This document shows positions 37,994-46,581 of a stretch of 64,000 nt of DNA, piece after piece (the first letter of the stretch is position 1; each line of letters starts with the position of its first letter). The translations under genes and the position numbers were made by a program. The stretch is from Gloeobacter violaceus PCC 7421 (lineage in GTDB: Bacteria; Cyanobacteriota; Cyanobacteriia; Gloeobacterales; Gloeobacteraceae): the NCBI RefSeq assembly GCF_000011385.1, contig NC_005125.1, forward strand, positions 620,001 through 684,000, read 5' to 3'. The notes beneath the pieces were generated by a model that saw only the letters and a list, made by a program, of their open reading frames with translations, was not told where the DNA came from and did not search any database.

Positions 37994-38245
37994 ATGCCCG
38001 ACGTTACCCTGTCGCTCCCGGATGAAATTTTACTGGCGCTCAAACTCACCCCGAATCAACTTGGCGATGAAATGCGCTTTGCGGCGGCTGTCAAACTTTA
38101 TGAACTGGAACGGCTTTCTTCCGGTGCCGCTGCGAACCTCGCCGGAGTACCGCGTACTGTATTTCTGAGCAAACTGGCCGACTATGGTGTCAGTTCCTTT
38201 CGCCTCGGCAAAGAGGAATTGAGCGAGGATATGCGTAGTGCCTGA
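37994..38245 (+). CDS. UPF0175 family antitoxin-like protein
   Basis: 83 residues from ATG 37994 with GGCGGAAG upstream. UPF0175 signature: RFAAAVKLYELERLSSGAAANLAGVPRTVFLSKLADYG (read in two parts), a helix-turn-helix-like DNA-binding module. It overlaps the next gene by 8 bp. UPF0175/DUF3368 pairs are recognised toxin-antitoxin modules, in which this protein neutralises and represses. Confidence 0.88.
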   Translation: MPDVTLSLPDEILLALKLTPNQLGDEMRFAAAVKLYELERLSSGAAANLAGVPRTVFLSKLADYGVSSFRLGKEELSEDMRSA

Positions 38246-38723
38246 GGTGATTGCTGACACCTCACCGCTTCAATACCTTTACCAAGCTGAGATATTGGAT
38301 CTGCTCAGGCTCCTGTACGGGTATATCGTTCTTCCCCAAGCGGTAGCTGACGAACTGGCAGCAGGCCGGACCCGGAGGGTCACGCTTCCTGATCCCGCTT
38401 CGATCCTGTGGATGAGTGTTCGGCGAGTTTTGCCCACTAAATTGCTTCAAATGACAAGCGATCTGGGTGCGGGTGAAAGGGAAGTGCTGGCTTTGGCGGT
38501 GGAGATGCCGGGCTCGTTGGTATTGCTCGACGATGGCCTGGCAAGACGGTATGCTCGTCTGCTCAATCTTCAGTTGGCCGGAACGCTAGGAGTCCTGCTT
38601 AAGGCTAAGCAAGAGAAACACATCAATGCAGTCAAACCAGCCGTCGACCGTCTCGAAGCGCTTGGGTTCCGGCTTGCTCCGTCCACCCGTGCCGCTGTGC
38701 TTGAACTTGCCGAAGAGGTGTGA
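38238..38723 (+). CDS. DUF3368 PIN-like toxin
   Basis: 161 residues from GTG 38238, overlapping the antitoxin gene. PIN-type acidic residues: Asp in IADTSPLQYLY, Glu in GAGEREVLALA and Asp in VLLDDGLARRYA, followed by the DUF3368 hallmark LAGTLGVLLKAKQEKHI. PIN toxins cut RNA. Translation coupling by overlap fits a stoichiometric toxin-antitoxin pair. Its end lies 17 bp from the convergent end of the VirB4-like gene. Confidence 0.88.
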   Translation: MPEVIADTSPLQYLYQAEILDLLRLLYGYIVLPQAVADELAAGRTRRVTLPDPASILWMSVRRVLPTKLLQMTSDLGAGEREVLALAVEMPGSLVLLDDGLARRYARLLNLQLAGTLGVLLKAKQEKHINAVKPAVDRLEALGFRLAPSTRAAVLELAEEV

Positions 38724-38739: not shown

Positions 38740-41433
38740 TTAACCGGGCTCATCTCTGAGCATCCGAAGATAATGCTCGGTGAAGGCGGACAGAGCACTT
38801 AAGCGGTCAGGATAGCGTCTGCCGACTTCGGCCAGAAACGCTTCGCGCTCGCGCTGCTCGTCGGGGTTGTTGGCCACTACCGCAAGGGAACGAAAACTCG
38901 GGTAATAGCGCACCGGCGTGAGCAAGCCGCCGTCGTCCAGCAGCCAGCGCGAAAAAACTTCGCGGGCGTTGGGAAAGAACTGGGCGCTCGCGTTGCGCGC
39001 CAAACTGGCCGGGGTGTACCCGAACACACGGGCAAAGGAAGGAATCGCACTCGCTTCGATGCGGCCAATCAGCCGGGTGCGGAGGTTCTGGAAGATCTTG
39101 GAACTATTGGGGGCTTTTTCGATCGTGTCGGGATCTTGGGCGCTGATGATCACCCGCACACCGGCCTTGGCGCCGTTGGCGCACAGCCTGCCCACCAGAT
39201 TGGCGATCTCGGCGCATTCAAAAAGAATCGGTGCCTCATCGAGGATAAACAGCGACGCCGGGGTGGCAAGCGCCCGGCGCAGGGCGGCGGCGTAGTTGGC
39301 GAGGGCAAGCACGGTCATGTCCTCGGCGTTGCTCACATTGCGCAGGGCGAAGACCAACAGGGCCGCGTCGGCGCGGATCGTGGAAGGCGAACTCAGACGG
39401 GCGCCCACCCGCGAACCCATCCAGTAGGTCAGCCGCAGGCGGATGTGCTCGAAGGCGGGCCGCAGGCTGCTCTGGTCGGTATCGATGCCCAGGCGGCCCG
39501 CTTCAAGAAACGGCAGCAAATCCGGCAGCGAGGGGTAATCGCGCCAGGGGGTGGTGAAGGGGCCGGCGCGGGTGGCCGCTTCGTAGCGCCGCCGGATGGC
39601 GGGGTCTTTGAAAAATGCTCCTGCCGCCAGTTGCAACAGCGAACGCACCGTCTGGGACAGCAACGGATCTTGCACGTCTCTGCCCAGCACCATGACCAGC
39701 AGCGCCGAGACCAAAAATTCTTGAAACTCTTCGAGCCGCTCGGCGCGCACCCGTTCCTCCAGACCGGCCAGATCCGGCAATTCGAACAGGTTGAGGGCGT
39801 GGCGGCCGACATCAAAATACGCCCCTTCGACAAAGGCCGTCAGGTCAGAAAAAGTCGAACTACCGTCGGGCTTGGGAAAATCCATCGCCACCACCGGCAC
39901 CCGGCGGGCGAGGGCGTGGCGCATCAGCACTTCCAAAAGCACGGACTTTCCTGAGCGGGTCGTCCCAAATAGCGCCAGGTTGCGGTGGCGCCGGTAAAGA
40001 TCGAGCCACAGCGGGGTTTGGCCCTCTTCGCTCAATAGCTCGACGCCCTCTCGATCGATGCTCGCAAGGCGCACCAGCGGCAAAAATCCGGGTGCTTCTT
40101 CATCTAATAGTTCGAGGCGGCGGTCGAAGGGGGCGACCAGCAACCCCTCCCAGACAAAAGGCAAACTCTGAAAAAAGACTTTCCAGGCGTAGGAGACCTC
40201 GCGCACCACCCGGGCCGGGCGGTTGAAAAAGCCCGAGATAAACCGGCAGCCCTCGGCCAACAGCAACGGGTCAGACCGCCAGACCAGCACGCAGACCGCC
40301 AGGTACACCGGCCGGGCGCCCTCGATAAACGATTTTTCGAGTTCGGCTGCTTCTTCGAGTTTGAGTTGTTGGGGTACATCGACGAGCTTGCCCTGGCGCT
40401 GGCTTGTCTTCAAGCCCGCCGAAGCCTGCCGCTGGAGACGCACGGCGTTGTCGCGGCTGGTGCGTTCGTTGACGGTCGAAATTTCGACGACGATCTCGGT
40501 GTCGACCACCTCCTGGCGGGCCATCAGGTTCCAGAGATAGCGCAGTTGGGCGGCCGGGTCCGCGAAGCCCGAGGGTTTTTCGTCCCAAACTAGTACCGCG
40601 CAGTGGCGCATCCCCGCTTCCGGGGTGCCGATGCTCACTTTCTCCGCACTCAGGCGCGGGGGGGACTCGAACAGGGCACTGCGAAAATCGAGATCGCCAT
40701 GCGACTGCTCGCACAGTCCGCCCCCGCTCAGGCGCAACAGCCGCGGGGGCGGCGGCGGCGATCCGGTATTGAACTGCTTCCAGGCCCAGGCCATCAACTC
40801 CTCGGCCCCAAGGGGCACTACCGCGAGCCGGGCGGTGAGGTTGAGCAGGTGCAACCACTGGCGGCAGTGGGCATAGGCGTGGCTGACCAGCCGGTGCAGC
40901 CGGGCTTGCGATTCGGCGGCCCCCTCCCCCAGATAGCTCAACCACCACTCCTGCACTCCCAATGCCACCCGGTCGATCCAGTCGCGCGAAGCAGCCTGGG
41001 CAGACCATTCTCCCCAGCAGGCAAACAGGAGCAATTCGCTCACCTTGCGCCGCCCGTCGGCGGCGAGCCCCTGCACGCGCTGCTGCTCCCCGGCGATGAG
41101 CCAGTCGACCGGTTCGCCTACCTCCCTGCCGCGCAATTGCTCGAGTTGTGCCAGGCGACTCTCGCTTTCAGCAAAGCTCGAAAGCCGCACCGAGAGACGC
41201 CCCCCGGTCGGCAGATCCCGGCAGAGGGCGACCAGACCGGCGCAGGCGTCCGCCATCGCCTCCGGCGACTGGCAGGCGTGGATGCCCGGGGTGCGCAGGG
41301 CAAACACACAGCGAAACGCCTGCTTGCGCTGGAGGATATAGAAGCCGCAACTCAGTTGCGGGTGGTCCACCTGGCCGATGGCGACGATATCGACCAGGTG
41401 TTCGACCGGGGTGAAACCGTCTTTTTTCTTCAT
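38740..41433 (-). CDS. VirB4/TraC-like type IV secretion ATPase
   Basis: 897 residues from ATG 41433, which overlaps the upstream TGA by 4 bp (ATGA). The N-terminal half lacks motifs but fits a VirB4 N-domain. The C-terminal half is a FtsK/HerA-like ATPase: Walker A GTTRSGKS at about residue 490, a strand VPVVAMDFPKPDG, then Walker B LFILDEAPILFE at about residue 728 and a sensor region IISAQDPDTIEKA. The segment between carries VirB4-typical LFELPD and QLAAGAFF blocks. It would power pilus assembly or substrate export at the inner membrane. No coupling protein or relaxase is seen in this window. Last gene of a seven-gene operon. Confidence 0.82.
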   Translation of the reverse strand: MKKKDGFTPVEHLVDIVAIGQVDHPQLSCGFYILQRKQAFRCVFALRTPGIHACQSPEAMADACAGLVALCRDLPTGGRLSVRLSSFAESESRLAQLEQLRGREVGEPVDWLIAGEQQRVQGLAADGRRKVSELLLFACWGEWSAQAASRDWIDRVALGVQEWWLSYLGEGAAESQARLHRLVSHAYAHCRQWLHLLNLTARLAVVPLGAEELMAWAWKQFNTGSPPPPPRLLRLSGGGLCEQSHGDLDFRSALFESPPRLSAEKVSIGTPEAGMRHCAVLVWDEKPSGFADPAAQLRYLWNLMARQEVVDTEIVVEISTVNERTSRDNAVRLQRQASAGLKTSQRQGKLVDVPQQLKLEEAAELEKSFIEGARPVYLAVCVLVWRSDPLLLAEGCRFISGFFNRPARVVREVSYAWKVFFQSLPFVWEGLLVAPFDRRLELLDEEAPGFLPLVRLASIDREGVELLSEEGQTPLWLDLYRRHRNLALFGTTRSGKSVLLEVLMRHALARRVPVVAMDFPKPDGSSTFSDLTAFVEGAYFDVGRHALNLFELPDLAGLEERVRAERLEEFQEFLVSALLVMVLGRDVQDPLLSQTVRSLLQLAAGAFFKDPAIRRRYEAATRAGPFTTPWRDYPSLPDLLPFLEAGRLGIDTDQSSLRPAFEHIRLRLTYWMGSRVGARLSSPSTIRADAALLVFALRNVSNAEDMTVLALANYAAALRRALATPASLFILDEAPILFECAEIANLVGRLCANGAKAGVRVIISAQDPDTIEKAPNSSKIFQNLRTRLIGRIEASAIPSFARVFGYTPASLARNASAQFFPNAREVFSRWLLDDGGLLTPVRYYPSFRSLAVVANNPDEQREREAFLAEVGRRYPDRLSALSAFTEHYLRMLRDEPG

Positions 41434-41693
41434 CGCAACTGTCGGGTGCGGGCGAGGGCGGGCGGGTCGAGCATCTGTCCGAAGAAACGGTGGGGGCGGC
41501 GGCCGGCCAGCAACAGCCACAGCGCGCAGGCCCAGACGACGAAGGTGCCCGTCCAGATCCAGTTGAGGCCGAGGATGCCGCTCAGCACGAAGTAACCGCC
41601 AATCACCGTGAGCAGCCAGGGAAAGACCAGATCTCCGGGCACCAGGTTCAAAAAGTCGGCCTTCTGACCGAGCCTGCGGTTGAGCTTGCGCAT
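41430..41693 (-). CDS. small two-helix membrane protein, VirB3-like position
   Basis: 87 residues from ATG 41693, preceded by GAGGAGACACCG. A basic N-terminus (MRKLNRRLGQK) is followed by two adjacent transmembrane segments, VFPWLLTVIGGYFVLSGIL and WTGTFVVWACALWLLLAG, and a basic tail with FFGQML. The topology, length and location directly before virB4 match VirB3/TrbD/TraL proteins. Its TGA overlaps the VirB4-like start. Sequence similarity is not claimed. Confidence 0.6.
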   Translation of the reverse strand: MRKLNRRLGQKADFLNLVPGDLVFPWLLTVIGGYFVLSGILGLNWIWTGTFVVWACALWLLLAGRRPHRFFGQMLDPPALARTRQLR

Positions 41694-41703
41694 CGGTGTC
41701 TCC

Positions 41704-42066
41704 TCAGGCGCTGGGGATGATGAGGCTCGTGATTACATCGCCCACCACGATGCTGATCGTGGCGAGGATGGGCACGCGGGCGGTGGTCTGCCAGTCTTCA
41801 TCGTTTCGAGCAGCCTGTACGGTTCGCACAATGCCCAGGGCGATCCAGACCAGCAGCACGGCGCGCAGGACGTTGACGGTCATGTCCACTCCGAAGGCGG
41901 CCGTCAAGTTGCCGGTGCTCAAAAATAGCTCGTTGAGCCAGACGCGGGCGTTCTCGAAGAAAACGGCGTGGGCGGGCCGGGGATGAATGAGCCCGTCGGC
42001 CACCGGCAGCAGAGCGGCGAGGACGGCGCGCAGCAGCCAGGCAGGCAGGGAAAGATATTTGCGCAT
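41704..42066 (-). CDS. pilin-like small membrane protein, VirB2/TrbC-like
   Basis: 120 residues from ATG 42066, with AGGATACATCCC upstream. An N-terminal signal peptide (LLRAVLAALLPVADGLI, cleavage near HPRPAHA) precedes a short segment and two hydrophobic helices (NVLRAVLLVWIALGIVRTV and VPILATISIVVGDVITSLII). Long signal peptide plus two helices is the layout of T4SS major pilins. Order before the VirB3-like and VirB4-like genes supports this. Confidence 0.6.
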   Translation of the reverse strand: MRKYLSLPAWLLRAVLAALLPVADGLIHPRPAHAVFFENARVWLNELFLSTGNLTAAFGVDMTVNVLRAVLLVWIALGIVRTVQAARNDEDWQTTARVPILATISIVVGDVITSLIIPSA

Positions 42067-42076
42067 GGGATGTATC

Positions 42077-42292
42077 CTATAGGGTTTGGGCTAGGCGGGC
42101 GGCACTGGTGAGCAGTTTCAGACAGGTCTCGGCGCCGAGGGTGCCGAACAGGCGATCGCGCTGGTGGGTATAGGCCGTCTGTCGGGCCGGGCCATAGCGG
42201 CCGGCGGTGACCAGGTCCAGCAGGCCGGGAACCAGTGTGCTCATGTAGGGTTGCAGGCGAAAAAAAGCGGGCGGCGGAAAATTGAAGGACAT
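42077..42292 (-). CDS. short hypothetical protein of the T4SS-like operon
   Basis: 71 residues from ATG 42292 with GTGAGGCC upstream. Starts with MSFNFPPPAFFRLQPY, then LVPGLLDLVTAGRYGP and a helix ending LLTSAARLAQTL. No signal peptide or clear transmembrane helix. It sits 9 bp after the muramidase stop and 10 bp before the pilin-like gene, so it is surely part of the transcript. Function unknown. Confidence 0.65.
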   Translation of the reverse strand: MSFNFPPPAFFRLQPYMSTLVPGLLDLVTAGRYGPARQTAYTHQRDRLFGTLGAETCLKLLTSAARLAQTL

Positions 42293-42301
42293 GGCACGGC
42301 C

Positions 42302-43576
42302 TCACAGCGATGGAGTAGGGGGTTCGACCGATAGAGGTATGCGGGGTGCGGGTGTGTCGAAAAGCTGCAAGCGGGAGCGCGCGTAGGCAGACTTGCGCGC
42401 TTCGGCAAACGGGTCTTGTGTGGACAGACCAACGGCGGCGCCCGGTAAGCGATCTTGCTCCGATTGCTCGTACTCGCGGGCGAAGCGGTTCAGGTTGAGG
42501 GCGTACCCGGGATTGTAGGTTCGCCAGGCAGCACCGTTGTGGGAAGCAGCCATCTGCTCGCAGTTGCCCGATTGCATGGCGGTCAGCAGCCCGCCGTGGC
42601 GGCCCCGGGCATCCTCGCCGTGGCGGACGAAACTTGCGAGGGTATCGAGTTGCACCTTCGGGTCCGGCGATTGCAACGCCTGCAGCAGCTGTGGGCCGCT
42701 CCGGCCCGCTTGCTGCTGCCAGTGGCGATCGAGGGTCTGAAAGCCGGCAATCTGGCCATAGCCGAAGGTGGTGGACAACTCGCGCAATTGGCCAGATTCG
42801 AAAGCCGCGAAGGTGCGCATCGCTTCGAGTTTGGCGCGGCTGTCGGGCTTATCTCCGGCCATCCGGGCAAGCACCCCCGGCAGGCGACGGGAACTGGCCC
42901 CGGCGCGTTCGAACAGCTCGTCGATTTGTACCTGGTTGCGCTCGGGGTCGAGGTTGTCGAGGGTGGGTCTGTGCCCTTGCAACTCGCGCTGCATCGCCCC
43001 AAGCGACCCGGCAAAACTCCCCTCCCACCGCGGGCGGCTGAAGGTGCCGCCGGTGCTTTCCTGCTGCACCAGTGCGTAGAGAAATTTCGCGGGGATCACA
43101 GGCTCTTTGCCGTCGCCCTGGGCCGCCGCCTCCAGGTGGGACCGGTGGTCGATTCCCAAATGGGTGCGCCGATCGAGATTGCCGTCAAGAATAGCGGTGT
43201 GCTGAGCAAGGGTGGTGGCAGGCAGCTGAGTCGCGCGCTCTGCGACTGCCTGTACCAGCGATTGAGCGGTCTTGCGGTCGAAATTTCCGACCGCCAGGCC
43301 GTGCTCGCGCTGGAAGGTGTGTACCGCCCGCTCGGTGCCGGGGCCGAAACGCCCGTCGATGGTCGCTCCCGAGGACGGCCCCGCGCCAGTGGTGTAGCCC
43401 AAAAAAACCAGCTGGCGCTGCAGAGAGCGCACCGCCTCGCGGTTGCGGACAAAGGTTCCTTGTGTCTCCTCTGCATCCCTCAGCTCGTCCCAGCCCGTCT
43501 GGGCGCGCTCGGCCCGCTCCGGTGGTGCGTTGCCCAGGGCGACGGCGCGCAAAGCGAGATCGCGGGATAGGTCCAT
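42302..43576 (-). CDS. peptidoglycan-binding N-acetylmuramidase, VirB1-like role
   Basis: 424 residues from ATG 43576 with CGGAG upstream. Residues around 50-105 form a PG_binding_1 domain: LQRQLVFLGYTTG, then DGRFGPGTERAVHTFQREHGL. A muramidase-type lysozyme domain follows: ALVQQESTGGTF (probable catalytic Glu), FESGQLRELSTTFGYGQIAGF, and the C-terminal NPGYALNLNRFAREYE block of N-acetylmuramidase enzymes. Such enzymes make a local gap in the wall for secretion machines. No signal peptide is visible, so export may use another route. Third gene of the operon. Confidence 0.82.
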   Translation of the reverse strand: MDLSRDLALRAVALGNAPPERAERAQTGWDELRDAEETQGTFVRNREAVRSLQRQLVFLGYTTGAGPSSGATIDGRFGPGTERAVHTFQREHGLAVGNFDRKTAQSLVQAVAERATQLPATTLAQHTAILDGNLDRRTHLGIDHRSHLEAAAQGDGKEPVIPAKFLYALVQQESTGGTFSRPRWEGSFAGSLGAMQRELQGHRPTLDNLDPERNQVQIDELFERAGASSRRLPGVLARMAGDKPDSRAKLEAMRTFAAFESGQLRELSTTFGYGQIAGFQTLDRHWQQQAGRSGPQLLQALQSPDPKVQLDTLASFVRHGEDARGRHGGLLTAMQSGNCEQMAASHNGAAWRTYNPGYALNLNRFAREYEQSEQDRLPGAAVGLSTQDPFAEARKSAYARSRLQLFDTPAPRIPLSVEPPTPSL

Positions 43577-43619
43577 AGCCGATACTCCGTGTCGAAGGAT
43601 AGATGGTGGCTAAAAGGCT

Positions 43620-44015
43620 TTAGAAGCTGTAGCCCCGCTGGGCCAACTCCTCGCTCAGAGCCTGGTGGATGGCCTGAAAGAGCGTCTCCGAGCCACGCTT
43701 GTCGGTTTGTAATTCCAGATTGAGCAGGCTTCTGATCGCAAGTTCCAGCCCATCGAGGCGGGCGGCCAGGTAAGCGCCCTGGTTCATTTGTTCAGCAAGC
43801 AGCAAATCGCGCACATCGCCAAGCCGGACAGGCCGGGCTTCCTCCGGCAATGCCCCAGGCTCCACCGCTTCGGGATCGATGGGATCGAGCTGTTGGGTAA
43901 GGCACCAATCGAGGGCCGCCAGGACGTACTCCTGCGGGGTGCACTCGCTCTGTCGGCTGGCGGCAAGCAAGCGCTGGGCCAGGTGTTCCGGGATTTGAAC
44001 ATTCAGGGTGTCCAT
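43620..44015 (-). CDS. RHH-type DNA-binding-like protein of the T4SS-like operon
   Basis: 131 residues from ATG 44015. The N-terminus MDTLNVQIPEHLAQRLLAAS followed by helix TPQEYVLAALDWCL resembles a ribbon-helix-helix. The rest is acidic, then helical (LEQMNQGAYLAARLDGLEL). It begins 4 bases after the TGA of the first gene, so it is coupled. It may act in regulation or plasmid-like partition; inferred only. Confidence 0.6.
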   Translation of the reverse strand: MDTLNVQIPEHLAQRLLAASRQSECTPQEYVLAALDWCLTQQLDPIDPEAVEPGALPEEARPVRLGDVRDLLLAEQMNQGAYLAARLDGLELAIRSLLNLELQTDKRGSETLFQAIHQALSEELAQRGYSF

Positions 44016-44019
44016 GGTT

Positions 44020-45219
44020 TCAGGCCGCGCTCAGCTGCAGATGCACCACCTGCTCGCGGGGACGACCGCCCTCCTGCCAGAGAACCCGCAGGCGCTCCAC
44101 ATCAAGGTGAGCGGCGGCAATCTGCCAGAAGAGTTTGGCTGTGCGCTGGCGCAGGCATCCAAGGGTGAAGTCTGCCTGGTACGAGTCGTCGCACCGGATA
44201 CACCACTCGCCTGCTTGGACCTCGCAGGCCAGTTGGCCCAAAAAGTCCTGAAATTCCTGGGGCGGAGCAACTTCGTTAAATAGCCGGCGCCAGAAGGGCT
44301 TGAGGCGGACAGGACGCGACTGGCGGCCCCGGGCCAACTGGGCGTTCAGGTAGCCTTGATCGGTGTTGAAGTGCCAGTCGCGCCCGGCCAGGATCTTCTC
44401 CACCGCGGCGCAGGCGGAGTGGATCTGGACGTAATAGTCGCGGCGGCCGGCGTCGCGCCGGCACAAATCCAGGTAGAACACGGCCCGTTCCCATGCCTCG
44501 ATGGGCTGGCGCAGCCGCTGCAGCAGTGCCGCCGCCTTCGCCGGGTTGCCCCCAAGGGCGCGCTCCAGCCCTTCAAGGTGGGCAGTGAGCGCTACCCACC
44601 GCTGGGGTACCCCCCGCCGGGTATCGGGCCAGAAAGCTTCCAAAGGCGCACCGCTCTGGACGGGAGTGGCTCTGCCTTGCAGCAGCACTTGCACCCGGGC
44701 AAGATCCTGGCCGAACTGCTGCTCGAGCAATAAATTCAACAACACCTCGCGGGCCTGGCCGTCGCAGCGCTCGATCACCTGCTGCGGACACACCGTGGAT
44801 TCATCGCCCACCGGCACGGAGATCCGCGCCGCCGAACGCCCCTGCATCTGCAAGATATAGCGGCGCAACACCCGCACCGAGACGGCTTCGAGGCGTCCTG
44901 CGGGGATGCCCTGGGTGAGCAGGCAGGTTGTCGCCTCCGGCTGCAGCCGCATCAGCTCGGTAAGCCGCCCGACCCCCAGCTCGAGTGCGCCGTGCAAATC
45001 CGTCCGTTCCGCCAGGCGCATGGCGTGGCGGCAAACGGTGTGCCCGAATGGACATTCCCGCGAATCGAGAAAACTTTCGAAGCGCGCAAATCCGAGTCGC
45101 TGGTAAATCCGCTGCGCCTTAATCGCCAGCAGAGCCTTACCCAGACTCAACCGTTCTGCAGCGTCCGGGTCGCTGCGGTGACGCAGGTCGGCAAGAACCT
45201 GCAAATGTGAGATGCTCAT
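44020..45219 (-). CDS. unrecognised protein, first gene of the T4SS-like operon
   Basis: 399 residues from ATG 45219, preceded by GGAGGAGCGCCG. The first 100 residues contain helical blocks that look DNA-binding: ADLRHRSDPDAAERLSLGKALLAIKAQ, then ECPFGHTVCRHAMRLAERT. The C-terminal half is rich in Trp, Arg and charged helices, with FWRRLFNEVAPPQEFQDFLG. I do not recognise a family. The position behind a palindromic operator and ahead of transfer genes suggests a regulator or replication protein, but this is a guess. Confidence 0.7.
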   Translation of the reverse strand: MSISHLQVLADLRHRSDPDAAERLSLGKALLAIKAQRIYQRLGFARFESFLDSRECPFGHTVCRHAMRLAERTDLHGALELGVGRLTELMRLQPEATTCLLTQGIPAGRLEAVSVRVLRRYILQMQGRSAARISVPVGDESTVCPQQVIERCDGQAREVLLNLLLEQQFGQDLARVQVLLQGRATPVQSGAPLEAFWPDTRRGVPQRWVALTAHLEGLERALGGNPAKAAALLQRLRQPIEAWERAVFYLDLCRRDAGRRDYYVQIHSACAAVEKILAGRDWHFNTDQGYLNAQLARGRQSRPVRLKPFWRRLFNEVAPPQEFQDFLGQLACEVQAGEWCIRCDDSYQADFTLGCLRQRTAKLFWQIAAAHLDVERLRVLWQEGGRPREQVVHLQLSAA

Positions 45220-45269
45220 CGGCGCTCCTCCAACGCTGTGCTGGAGGCAGCATATCAAAACGGCATAAT

Positions 45270-45299
45270 TCCCACAAGTGGGAGATGTCGTTTGTGGGA
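45270..45299. promoter_or_regulatory. palindromic operator upstream of the T4SS-like operon
   Basis: TCCCACAAGTGGGA at 45270-45283 is a perfect inverted repeat with a 2-base centre. TTTGTGGGA at 45291-45299 repeats one half-site 21 bp further on. It lies 50-80 bp upstream of the operon's first ATG, between it and the divergent tRNA-Ser, a good place for a repressor. Confidence 0.6.
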
Positions 45300-45364
45300 T
45301 CTGTAGGGTGCCGGACACCGGCTCTGGAGGGAGTAAGCGGGCCGGATGGTAGACTGGGGTTGCT

Positions 45365-45449
45365 GGAGAGGTGGTAGAGCGGTCTATTGCGTCGGTCTTG
45401 AAAACCGAAGAGGCGCAAGCCTCCGTGGGTTCGAATCCCACCCTCTCCG
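45365..45449 (+). tRNA. tRNA-Ser (anticodon TGA)
   Basis: Acceptor arms GGAGAGG and CCTCTCC pair over 7 bases, discriminator G. Anticodon loop CTTGAAA gives anticodon TGA. The anticodon stem CGGT/ACCG is intact, the variable arm is long (AGAGGCGCAAGCCTCC), and the T-arm carries GGTTCGAATCC. CCA not encoded. It is divergent from the T4SS-like operon, and a decayed 3' copy lies about 520 bp downstream. Confidence 0.95.
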
Positions 45450-45559
45450 CTCAATTGACAGCCTCCGTCATTTGTCGGCAGGGTTTTCTGGGGAACGACC
45501 GGCGGACTGCGGACCAACAGAGAGGATCTTCCGCGTGGTGTTCAGTCTGTCCAAGTGAT

Positions 45560-45889
45560 ATGCATGTAGGAAACCGTCCTGCCATCGACATGACCACCAA
45601 CAACGGACTACCCCCGGACGTCTCTGCCAGGCTCGATCGCATCGAGGTGCTCGTCGCGGCCAACAGTGAGCAGATCACCGCTAACTCGACAGCGATCGCC
45701 CGCCTCGAAGCCAATCAGGCGGCGATGAGCGAACGGGTCAACATCATCGCCGAACGGGTCGATACCCTGGCGGAGTCGATCCGCGTGTTGGTGCCAATTA
45801 TCCAGTCGATCCAGTCGGACGTTCGCGGCCTACAGCTGGAGAATCGCCGCATCCTCGATATCCTGCAGCAGCGCGGGGGAAATGGGTAA
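45560..45889 (+). CDS. coiled-coil hypothetical protein, copy 1
   Basis: 109 residues from ATG 45560 (weak ribosome site); ATG 45590 is an alternative. A helical repeat body (RLDRIEVLVAANSEQITANS, then RLEANQAAMSERVNIIAERVDTL) ends in DVRGLQLENRRILDILQQRG. Related to the gene at 46084 and, more loosely, to 16840. The upstream 160 bp are duplicated before copy 2. Function unknown; trimer-like coiled-coil is likely. Confidence 0.6.
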   Translation: MHVGNRPAIDMTTNNGLPPDVSARLDRIEVLVAANSEQITANSTAIARLEANQAAMSERVNIIAERVDTLAESIRVLVPIIQSIQSDVRGLQLENRRILDILQQRGGNG

Positions 45890-45906: not shown

Positions 45907-45973
45907 TTCTTGCCGGTCTTGAAAATCGAAGAGGCGAGAGCCCGCGTAGATTCGAATCCCAACCTCTGCACTC
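45907..45973 (+). pseudogene. decayed partial tRNA-Ser copy
   Basis: The anticodon arm CGGTCTTGAAAATCG, a variable-arm remnant (AGAGGCGAGAGCCC), a T-arm with GATTCGAATCC and a damaged acceptor end ACCTCTG are recognisable. The 5' acceptor and D-arm are missing. It cannot fold into a functional tRNA. Confidence 0.75.
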
Positions 45974-46083
45974 AAGCGAGAACACCGTTATTTATGGACA
46001 GGGTTTGCTGGGGACCAACCGCCGCACACCTGCGCAAAAAACAAAGAGCATCCCGCGCGTGGTGTTCAGTCTGTCCAAGTGAT

Positions 46084-46581
46084 ATGCATGTAGGAAACCG
46101 CCCTGCCATCGACATGACCACCAACAACGGCCAACCACCCGAATACTCCAGTAGGTTGGATCGCATCGAGGCTATCGTCGCGGCCACCAGCGAACAGATT
46201 GCCGCCAATGCCATCGCTCTTTCCCGCCTGGAGGAGTCGGTTGCCAGGCACGACTCGGTCCTGGAGCGCCTGGAGGAGTCGGTTGCCAGGCACGACTCGG
46301 TTATGGGTGCAATACAAACGTCAATTGCCGCCAATGCCGCTGCCATAGACCGACTTGAAGCTAACCAGGCCGCCGGCAGCGAGCGGCTGAATATTCTCAC
46401 CGAGCGTGTAAACACAGTGTCGGAGTCTGTGAACCAGGTTTCCCGTATCGCCTTCGCTACGTTTCAACGCTTCGACGCGATGCAGGTGGAGATCCACGAT
46501 CTGCGGACGGACGTGCGCGGGCTGCAACTGGAAAATCGCCGCATCCTCAATATTTTGGAGCAGCGCGGCAACAACGGGTAA
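46084..46581 (+). CDS. coiled-coil hypothetical protein, copy 2 with internal repeat
   Basis: 165 residues from ATG 46084. It shares start (HVGNRPAIDMTTNNG) and end (DVRGLQLENRRILNILEQRG) with copy 1 but is longer in the middle. The extra part includes a duplicated 14-residue block RLEESVARHDSVLE and an additional helix AIQTSIAANAAAIDRLEANQ. Expansion by slippage or recombination of heptad repeats is evident. Role unknown. Confidence 0.6.
   Translation: MHVGNRPAIDMTTNNGQPPEYSSRLDRIEAIVAATSEQIAANAIALSRLEESVARHDSVLERLEESVARHDSVMGAIQTSIAANAAAIDRLEANQAAGSERLNILTERVNTVSESVNQVSRIAFATFQRFDAMQVEIHDLRTDVRGLQLENRRILNILEQRGNNG
46225..46301 (+). repeat. 42-bp in-frame direct repeat
   Basis: Unit 1 at 46225-46266 and unit 2 from 46267 are identical over about 34 bases. 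They add 14 codons to the coiled-coil of the copy 2 gene. Confidence 0.85.

Follow-up and report, generated by a model that had tools for sequence, protein, structure and literature searches.

A seven-gene operon of Gloeobacter violaceus PCC 7421 as a probable module of a chromosomal type IV secretion system dispersed over three operons

The chromosome of the cyanobacterium Gloeobacter violaceus PCC 7421, a single contig of 4,659,019 bp, carries a compact group of seven genes that includes a VirB4-type ATPase of type IV secretion systems (T4SSs). The group, here called operon A, lies on the minus strand of the 64-kb window analysed (genome positions 620001-684000), and coordinates below are those of the window unless given as genomic. 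In order of transcription, its genes are orf1 (44020-45219; 399 aa), orf2 (43620-44015; a small protein of 131 aa), orf3 (42302-43576; 424 aa, a peptidoglycan-binding muramidase and candidate VirB1-like wall enzyme), orf4 (42077-42292; a small, genus-restricted protein of 71 aa), orf5 (41704-42066; 120 aa, a VirB2-like pilin), orf6 (41430-41693; 87 aa, VirB3-like) and orf7 (38740-41433; 897 aa counted from ATG, the VirB4 ATPase). Successive genes are separated by 4, 43, 9, 10 and 10 bp, and the last pair, orf6 and orf7, overlaps by 4 bp. A sequence-only reading of the window had proposed this tightly spaced operon, and all seven open reading frames (ORFs) are present at these positions. The most plausible start of orf7 is the ATG at position 41433; a longer, GTG-started ORF would overlap orf6. 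The G+C content of operon A (62-66%) is close to that of the window (61.4%), so that an island of foreign composition was rejected as an explanation; there is no sign of recent acquisition.

The best profile match of orf7 is TIGR00929 (VirB4_CagE, 9.3e-8), followed by TraC (1.4e-6), both under their curated cut-offs; FtsK_SpoIIIE (0.004) and DUF87/HerA (0.026) match more weakly and are also under cut-off. When the AlphaFold model of orf7 is compared with solved structures by Foldseek, the top 15 PDB chains are all VirB4 and precede any HerA, TrwB or FtsK. The leading structures are TrwK, the VirB4 of the R388 Trw system (8RTD/7O43), which aligns over nearly the full length, and the VirB4 of Thermoanaerobacter (4AG5), although these share only 12-14% sequence identity with orf7, and the R388 system is conjugative and encoded at a single locus. 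The VIA-align Z score is 21.5 for VirB4 4AG5, compared with 17.7 for HerA and 16.9 for FtsK. Neither the profiles nor the predicted fold group orf7 with HerA or FtsK, and the Walker A residues (R493, G495, K496, S497) and the Walker B pair D732-E733 are invariant in 25 relatives. As judged by profile and modelled fold, orf7 is a VirB4, as the sequence-only reading had suggested. No second copy of VirB4 was found in the G. violaceus genome.

The two genes that precede orf7 belong to families that occupy the VirB2 and VirB3 positions in cyanobacterial T4SSs. A hidden Markov model (HMM) built from the proteins in the pilin position at 22 cyanobacterial T4SS loci recovers orf5 at E 2.2e-30, and one of VirB3-position proteins recovers orf6 at E 5e-18, in both cases with 904 reading frames of the window as background. 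The orf5 product has a hydrophobic N-terminus with an AxA-F cleavage-like site followed by helices, predicted at residues 33-50, 62-88 and 97-116 in a low-confidence model (predicted local distance difference test, pLDDT, 65) for which no PDB match was found. The assignment of these two small proteins as pilin and VirB3 therefore holds at the level of family and position. The terms "VirB2-like" and "VirB3-like" accordingly denote putative identities, derived from where the genes lie, from protein size and membrane topology, and from homology among cyanobacterial T4SSs.

Upstream of the pilin gene, orf3 matches the Pfam domain PG_binding_1 (1.1e-13) and, marginally, Muramidase PF11860 (22.5 bits, just over the cut-off of 22.3), which supports the presence of a wall enzyme ahead of the pilin, VirB3 and VirB4 genes. 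No N-terminal signal sequence is visible. The gene is conserved across the genus and in the relative G390, and was not found in another, G389. For orf1, orf2 and orf4, searches of Pfam, NCBIfam and PHROGs gave no usable match; the earlier description of orf2 as a ribbon-helix-helix-like protein could thus not be upheld, as neither a Pfam or NCBIfam match nor a convincing PHROG match was obtained. PDB sequence searches with profiles of orf1, orf3, VirB4 and VirB10 returned nothing, or only weak or short matches. In relatives, orf1 is 97%, 65% and 54% identical (57% in G390), orf2 62-93% identical within the genus (48% in G390) and orf4 93-96% and 55% identical. Directly upstream of the T4SS genes in all Gloeobacteraceae examined, orf1 adjoins VirB2 even where orf2 to orf4 are absent; from the look of its sequence, it is possibly a regulator. 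An effector/immunity pair formed by orf3 and orf4 was considered but is not supported, as no signal sequence is visible in orf4 and no orf3 turned up in G389.

A six-frame scan of the window with family HMMs for VirB5, VirB6, VirB8, VirB9, VirB10 and the type IV coupling protein (T4CP), together with two relaxase Pfam models, found none of these components, in agreement with what had been read from the sequence. They were sought elsewhere by querying the genome with alignments of the proteins encoded downstream in plasmid and Nostocales T4SSs, and two further compact operons emerged. Operon B (genome positions 131296-133190) encodes a VirB5-like and a VirB6-like protein (the latter at 132126-133097). 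Operon C (genome positions 2186848-2192241) has the order B8-B10-B9-c7-T4CP and includes a VirB8-like protein (2186929-2187612, E 9e-45), VirB10 (2187735-2189006), the VirB9-like protein, the conserved T4SS-linked protein c7, and a VirD4-type T4CP (2190721-2192217, E 1.3e-174). Operon A is separated from the other two by about 0.53 Mb and 1.5 Mb on the one chromosome. The T4CP scores above three Pfam cut-offs (TrwB_AAD_bind 9e-28, TraG-D_C 3e-26, T4SS-DNA_transf 6e-24), and VirB10 matches TrbI at 1.5e-6, below cut-off. Homologues of VirB3, B4, B6, B8, B9 and B10 are thus all present in one genome, with support from outside families for VirB4, VirB10 and the T4CP; the VirB5, VirB6, VirB8 and VirB9 assignments are suggested by position, topology and homology to plasmid T4SSs. 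The sequence-only reading had favoured a minimal device of ATPase, pilin and wall enzyme, which these two loci contradict, and had named the start of a split locus as the alternative. The latter is the one borne out, because the missing parts lie elsewhere on the same chromosome.

Operons A and C are further linked by what lies upstream of them. On the minus strand ahead of operon A, the operator-like palindrome TCCCACTTGTGGGA (45270-45283) is conserved in relatives and recurs upstream of operon C. About 20 bp beyond it stands a second conserved half, GTCCGGCACC (45302-45319, minus strand), which takes the palindromic form TGTCCGGCGCCGGACA in G389. The palindrome overlaps a possible -35 hexamer, TTGTGG (45272-45277), 17 bp from TATGCT (45249-45254); this is a weak match, not listed by a consensus promoter scan. 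The same two-part arrangement is found upstream of operon C, 1.5 Mb away, and the genome holds exactly two occurrences of the composite pattern GTCCGNCRCC-N(24-34)-TGTGGGA, one at operon A and one at operon C. Among the relatives, it stands upstream of A in G386, G387, G388 and G389 and upstream of C in G386 only, and at no other place; six other genomes contain no occurrence, and a reversed control pattern gave three matches in all. Because the composite pattern was drawn from both the A and the C sites, matrices were also trained on the A sites alone. Across 255 kb, the resulting position weight matrix for the palindrome ranks the C sites of G. violaceus, G387 and G388 highest among the matches on which it was not trained. 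Operons A and C are therefore predicted to share an operator-like regulatory element.

All three modules are found on the chromosomes of four relatives (G386, G387, G388 and G389), whose VirB4 proteins are 98, 97, 78 and 70% identical to orf7; identities are 77-98% for VirB2 and 70-100% for VirB3. The order orf1 to orf7 is unchanged in three other genomes of the Gloeobacter clade, while G390 shows orf1-orf2-orf3-VirB2 before its contig ends and G389 has orf1-VirB2-VirB3-VirB4. The clustering of operon A, for which the sequence-only reading had called on synteny in other cyanobacteria, is hence conserved in Gloeobacter-clade relatives, and chance clustering of ORFs is excluded by far, because gene order persists at VirB4, VirB2 and VirB3 identities of 70-100%. 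Reading frames are intact in five genomes. The ratio of non-synonymous to synonymous substitution rates (dN/dS) between G. violaceus and G387 is 0.10-0.36 for every gene, and 0-0.31 against G388, with the exception of orf2 (0.60, on few changes). Values of about 0.36 or below for T4SS genes are, in terms of substitution patterns, the mark of a working system and not of decay. In a quick VirB4 tree with long branches, the Gloeobacteraceae form one 100%-supported clade with species-like branching, apart from a plasmid copy of G. morelensis.

This plasmid copy has its own context. The second contig of G388 (G. morelensis), of 172,328 bp, matches plasmid pGMOR1 (172 kb; L085 / L207), which carries a full plasmid-type T4SS with T4CP, is typed by MOB-suite as non-mobilizable and has no recognised relaxase. 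In the sister lineage G392, the T4SS genes of the three operons form one group of about 19 kb in which the T4CP gene sits between those of VirB6 and VirB8, and because that lineage keeps the same genes clustered, dispersal into three operons seems to be a derived state in Gloeobacteraceae. The same G392 region holds another linked wall enzyme, a protein of 933 aa that has peptidoglycan-binding domains and weakly matches M23 peptidases (L089, 15603-18404).

Overall, 44 of 386 cyanobacterial genomes and 114 plasmid records contain a relative of this VirB4; none was found among 50,697 phage records, and a phage origin of VirB4 was discarded. The plasmid and Nostocales proteins are about 40-44% identical to orf7. 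Plasmid loci follow the order B2-B3-B4-B5-B6-B8-B10-B9-c7-T4CP, with an adjoining relaxase in some. In a GTDB-wide collection, the order B2-B3-B4-B5-B6-B8-B8-B10, with the T4CP absent from the locus, accounts for 60 of the best 80 loci (B9 is also present in 49 of these), and only 4 have the plasmid-like order with T4CP. The conjugative T4SSs of the cyanobacterial class MPF_C, as in plasmid A of Trichormus variabilis ATCC 29413 and pMIC7113.01 of Allocoleopsis franciscana, comprise the same VirB2/3/4/5/6/8/10/9-like and T4CP families, with VirB4 proteins about 40-42% identical to orf7; a possible tie of the Gloeobacter system to this class is suggested by the relatedness of its VirB4 to cyanobacterial plasmid VirB4. 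Unlike these, the Gloeobacter system occupies three chromosomal loci, has no relaxase that was found, is inherited within the family, shares an operator-like element between A and C, and has the muramidase and orf1, orf2 and orf4 upstream. The T4SSs of Nostocales (PCC 7702, Nostoc, Calothrix; B2-B3-B4-B5-B6-B8-B8-B10-B9) are likewise chromosomal, with VirB4 42-44% identical, but they form one cluster with a duplicated VirB8-like gene (L033-L040, L105-L184), and their VirB4 proteins constitute one 100%-supported clade. Six Nostocales genomes whose only T4SS is a single chromosomal one were searched throughout, and no T4CP was found in any of them.

In organisation, the nearest parallel to the dispersed Gloeobacter system is, by analogy, that of the Rickettsiales. 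Their rvh T4SS has a VirD4-type coupling protein and exports proteins. It is also chromosomal, dispersed and vertically inherited, as an archipelago of islets (PMC2653234), and a report cited in that source attributes the control of all T4SS islets of Ehrlichia to one regulator, EcxR. It differs in its VirB4 lineage, in its obligate intracellular hosts, in the multiplication of VirB6 and in the loss of VirB5.

Taken together, operon A is probably a module of one chromosomal T4SS split over three operons. Its probable ancestor is a conjugative element that had become fixed by the time the Gloeobacteraceae split up, and the system of today would be a resident machine in which operons A and C share a regulatory site. 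The products of A, B and C would assemble into one apparatus, whose roles are assigned here by analogy with the R388 and Agrobacterium T4SSs. VirB4, with VirB3, VirB6 and VirB8, would constitute the inner-membrane engine for pilin extraction and assembly, and VirB9 and VirB10 the envelope-spanning core channel. The orf3 muramidase may open, or make room in, the cell wall, the VirB2-like protein may build a pilus or line the channel, and the T4CP would recruit substrates and hand them to the machine. The ancestral element has probably given up gene transfer for another task, for instance protein delivery, and the present system is probably, as far as its genes tell, a resident chromosomal T4SS for protein translocation, with DNA possible. 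Considered alone, the proposal that protein is the substrate has about an even chance; it is the likeliest substrate because the T4CP is conserved while no relaxase was found.

Several observations weigh against this reading. The model of orf7 is of low overall confidence (mean pLDDT 58), and the VirB2-, VirB3-, VirB5-, VirB6-, VirB8- and VirB9-like proteins of these families match no Pfam VirB models. No VirB9-like protein was detected in G389, where orf2 to orf4 are absent as well. Operon B has no full composite element, and a GTCCGG half-element stands there in some genomes only. With respect to the substrate, no effector was identified, the relaxase search took in two families only, and T4CPs of this type can work in conjugation as well.

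The last points bear on the possibility that the split system still moves DNA, which a relaxase of another family, or a plasmid-encoded relaxase acting in trans, would feed through the T4CP for chromosomal DNA transfer or plasmid mobilisation. The T4CP is under purifying selection and matches DNA-transfer Pfam families, this VirB4 family is common on conjugative plasmids, and G. morelensis bears a plasmid with its own T4SS. However, no relaxase of PF01076 or PF03432 was found in the G. violaceus genome at E <= 1 (MOBF, MOBQ, MOBH and MOBC were not searched), whereas the relaxase beside the related Trichormus plasmid T4SS, used as a positive control, matches PF03432 at 6e-11. No recognisable relaxase gene stands beside operon C, and the single chromosomal copy with species-like inheritance in the family does not speak for mobility. 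Continued DNA transfer is thus unlikely, with something like a one-in-four weight in our judgement. A machine for DNA uptake or release, or merely an adhesive pilus, is less probable still: a pilin and a wall enzyme are present and T4SSs for DNA uptake or release are known, but the known DNA-uptake system works without a T4CP, and the five family members that possess operon C all retain theirs.

Decay of an integrated conjugative element, whose now non-functional remains were broken up by rearrangement, would account for the dispersed, relaxase-free parts and for the position of operons A and C next to tRNA genes, the usual target of integrative elements. The low dN/dS values, the intact frames in five genomes, the genome-like G+C and the regulatory element common to A and C oppose it; conservation has already largely refuted decay, and we regard it as very improbable. 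The tRNA adjacency was also rejected as a sign of recent integration or of a live element, since each operon is located 5' of its tRNA gene, in divergent orientation, with no flanking repeat found beyond a local tRNA-Ser duplication; it is perhaps the trace of an old tRNA-targeted integration. Lastly, a self-sufficient VirB1-B2-B3-B4 device, to which the lack of any other T4SS part in the window had pointed, retains hardly any credibility with the remaining subunits co-conserved elsewhere in the genome and operon C sharing the regulatory element.

The surroundings of the operons can be described as follows. In each of the five Gloeobacteraceae genomes that have it, operon C is divergent from tRNA-Asn(GTT) (L078, 8673-8745, and its homologous loci), and operon A is divergent from tRNA-Ser in Gloeobacter only. 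The tRNA-Ser(TGA) gene is located at 45365-45450, and a degraded copy of its 3' part (84%) at 45914-45975. Two similar coiled-coil ORFs (45371-45889 and 45910-46581) are found, one after each tRNA-Ser copy; the pairing of tRNA-Ser and coiled-coil ORF is a local tandem duplication, single-copy in the two nearest relatives. On the other side, convergent with VirB4, a UPF0175 protein (37994-38245, plus strand) overlaps a 161-aa PIN/DUF3368-like protein (38238-38723, plus strand) in a toxin-antitoxin-like pair; in G388, the PIN/DUF3368-like gene lacks codons 33-130.

No paper describing a Gloeobacter T4SS was found, a weak negative, as subscription papers were outside the scope of the search. A 2011 survey reported relaxase-less T4SSs in cyanobacteria in general, with Gloeobacter unmentioned and integrative and conjugative elements only in Cyanothece (PMC3158045), a 2021 plasmid survey listed Gloeobacterales as without mobile plasmids (PMC8600333), and a 2016 survey of secretion systems tied protein secretion to MPF_I and MPF_T only (PMC4793230). 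What emerges is a near-complete cyanobacterial T4SS with T4CP, with no relaxase found (two families), dispersed over three co-conserved operons of which two share a regulatory element. Surveys that require clustered genes would score the T4SS of G. violaceus as incomplete or absent.

Judged by gene order and substitution patterns, the three-operon T4SS is inherited and kept intact across the earliest-branching cyanobacterial family, and Gloeobacter shows, in a free-living organism, a dispersed T4SS whose operons A and C are predicted to be under common control. A fuller scenario, held tentatively and at slightly less than an even chance, is that, ahead of the divergence of the Gloeobacteraceae, a conjugation-derived cyanobacterial T4SS was turned into a resident machine for protein delivery, encoded by three operons and coordinated in transcription, with a parallel domestication in Nostocales that dispensed with the coupling protein. 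If true, this would be the first protein-secreting T4SS of the cyanobacterial class and among the few dispersed T4SSs outside the Rickettsiales. With a conserved system in the earliest-branching cyanobacteria, T4SS-mediated delivery of proteins (or DNA) by cyanobacteria becomes testable.

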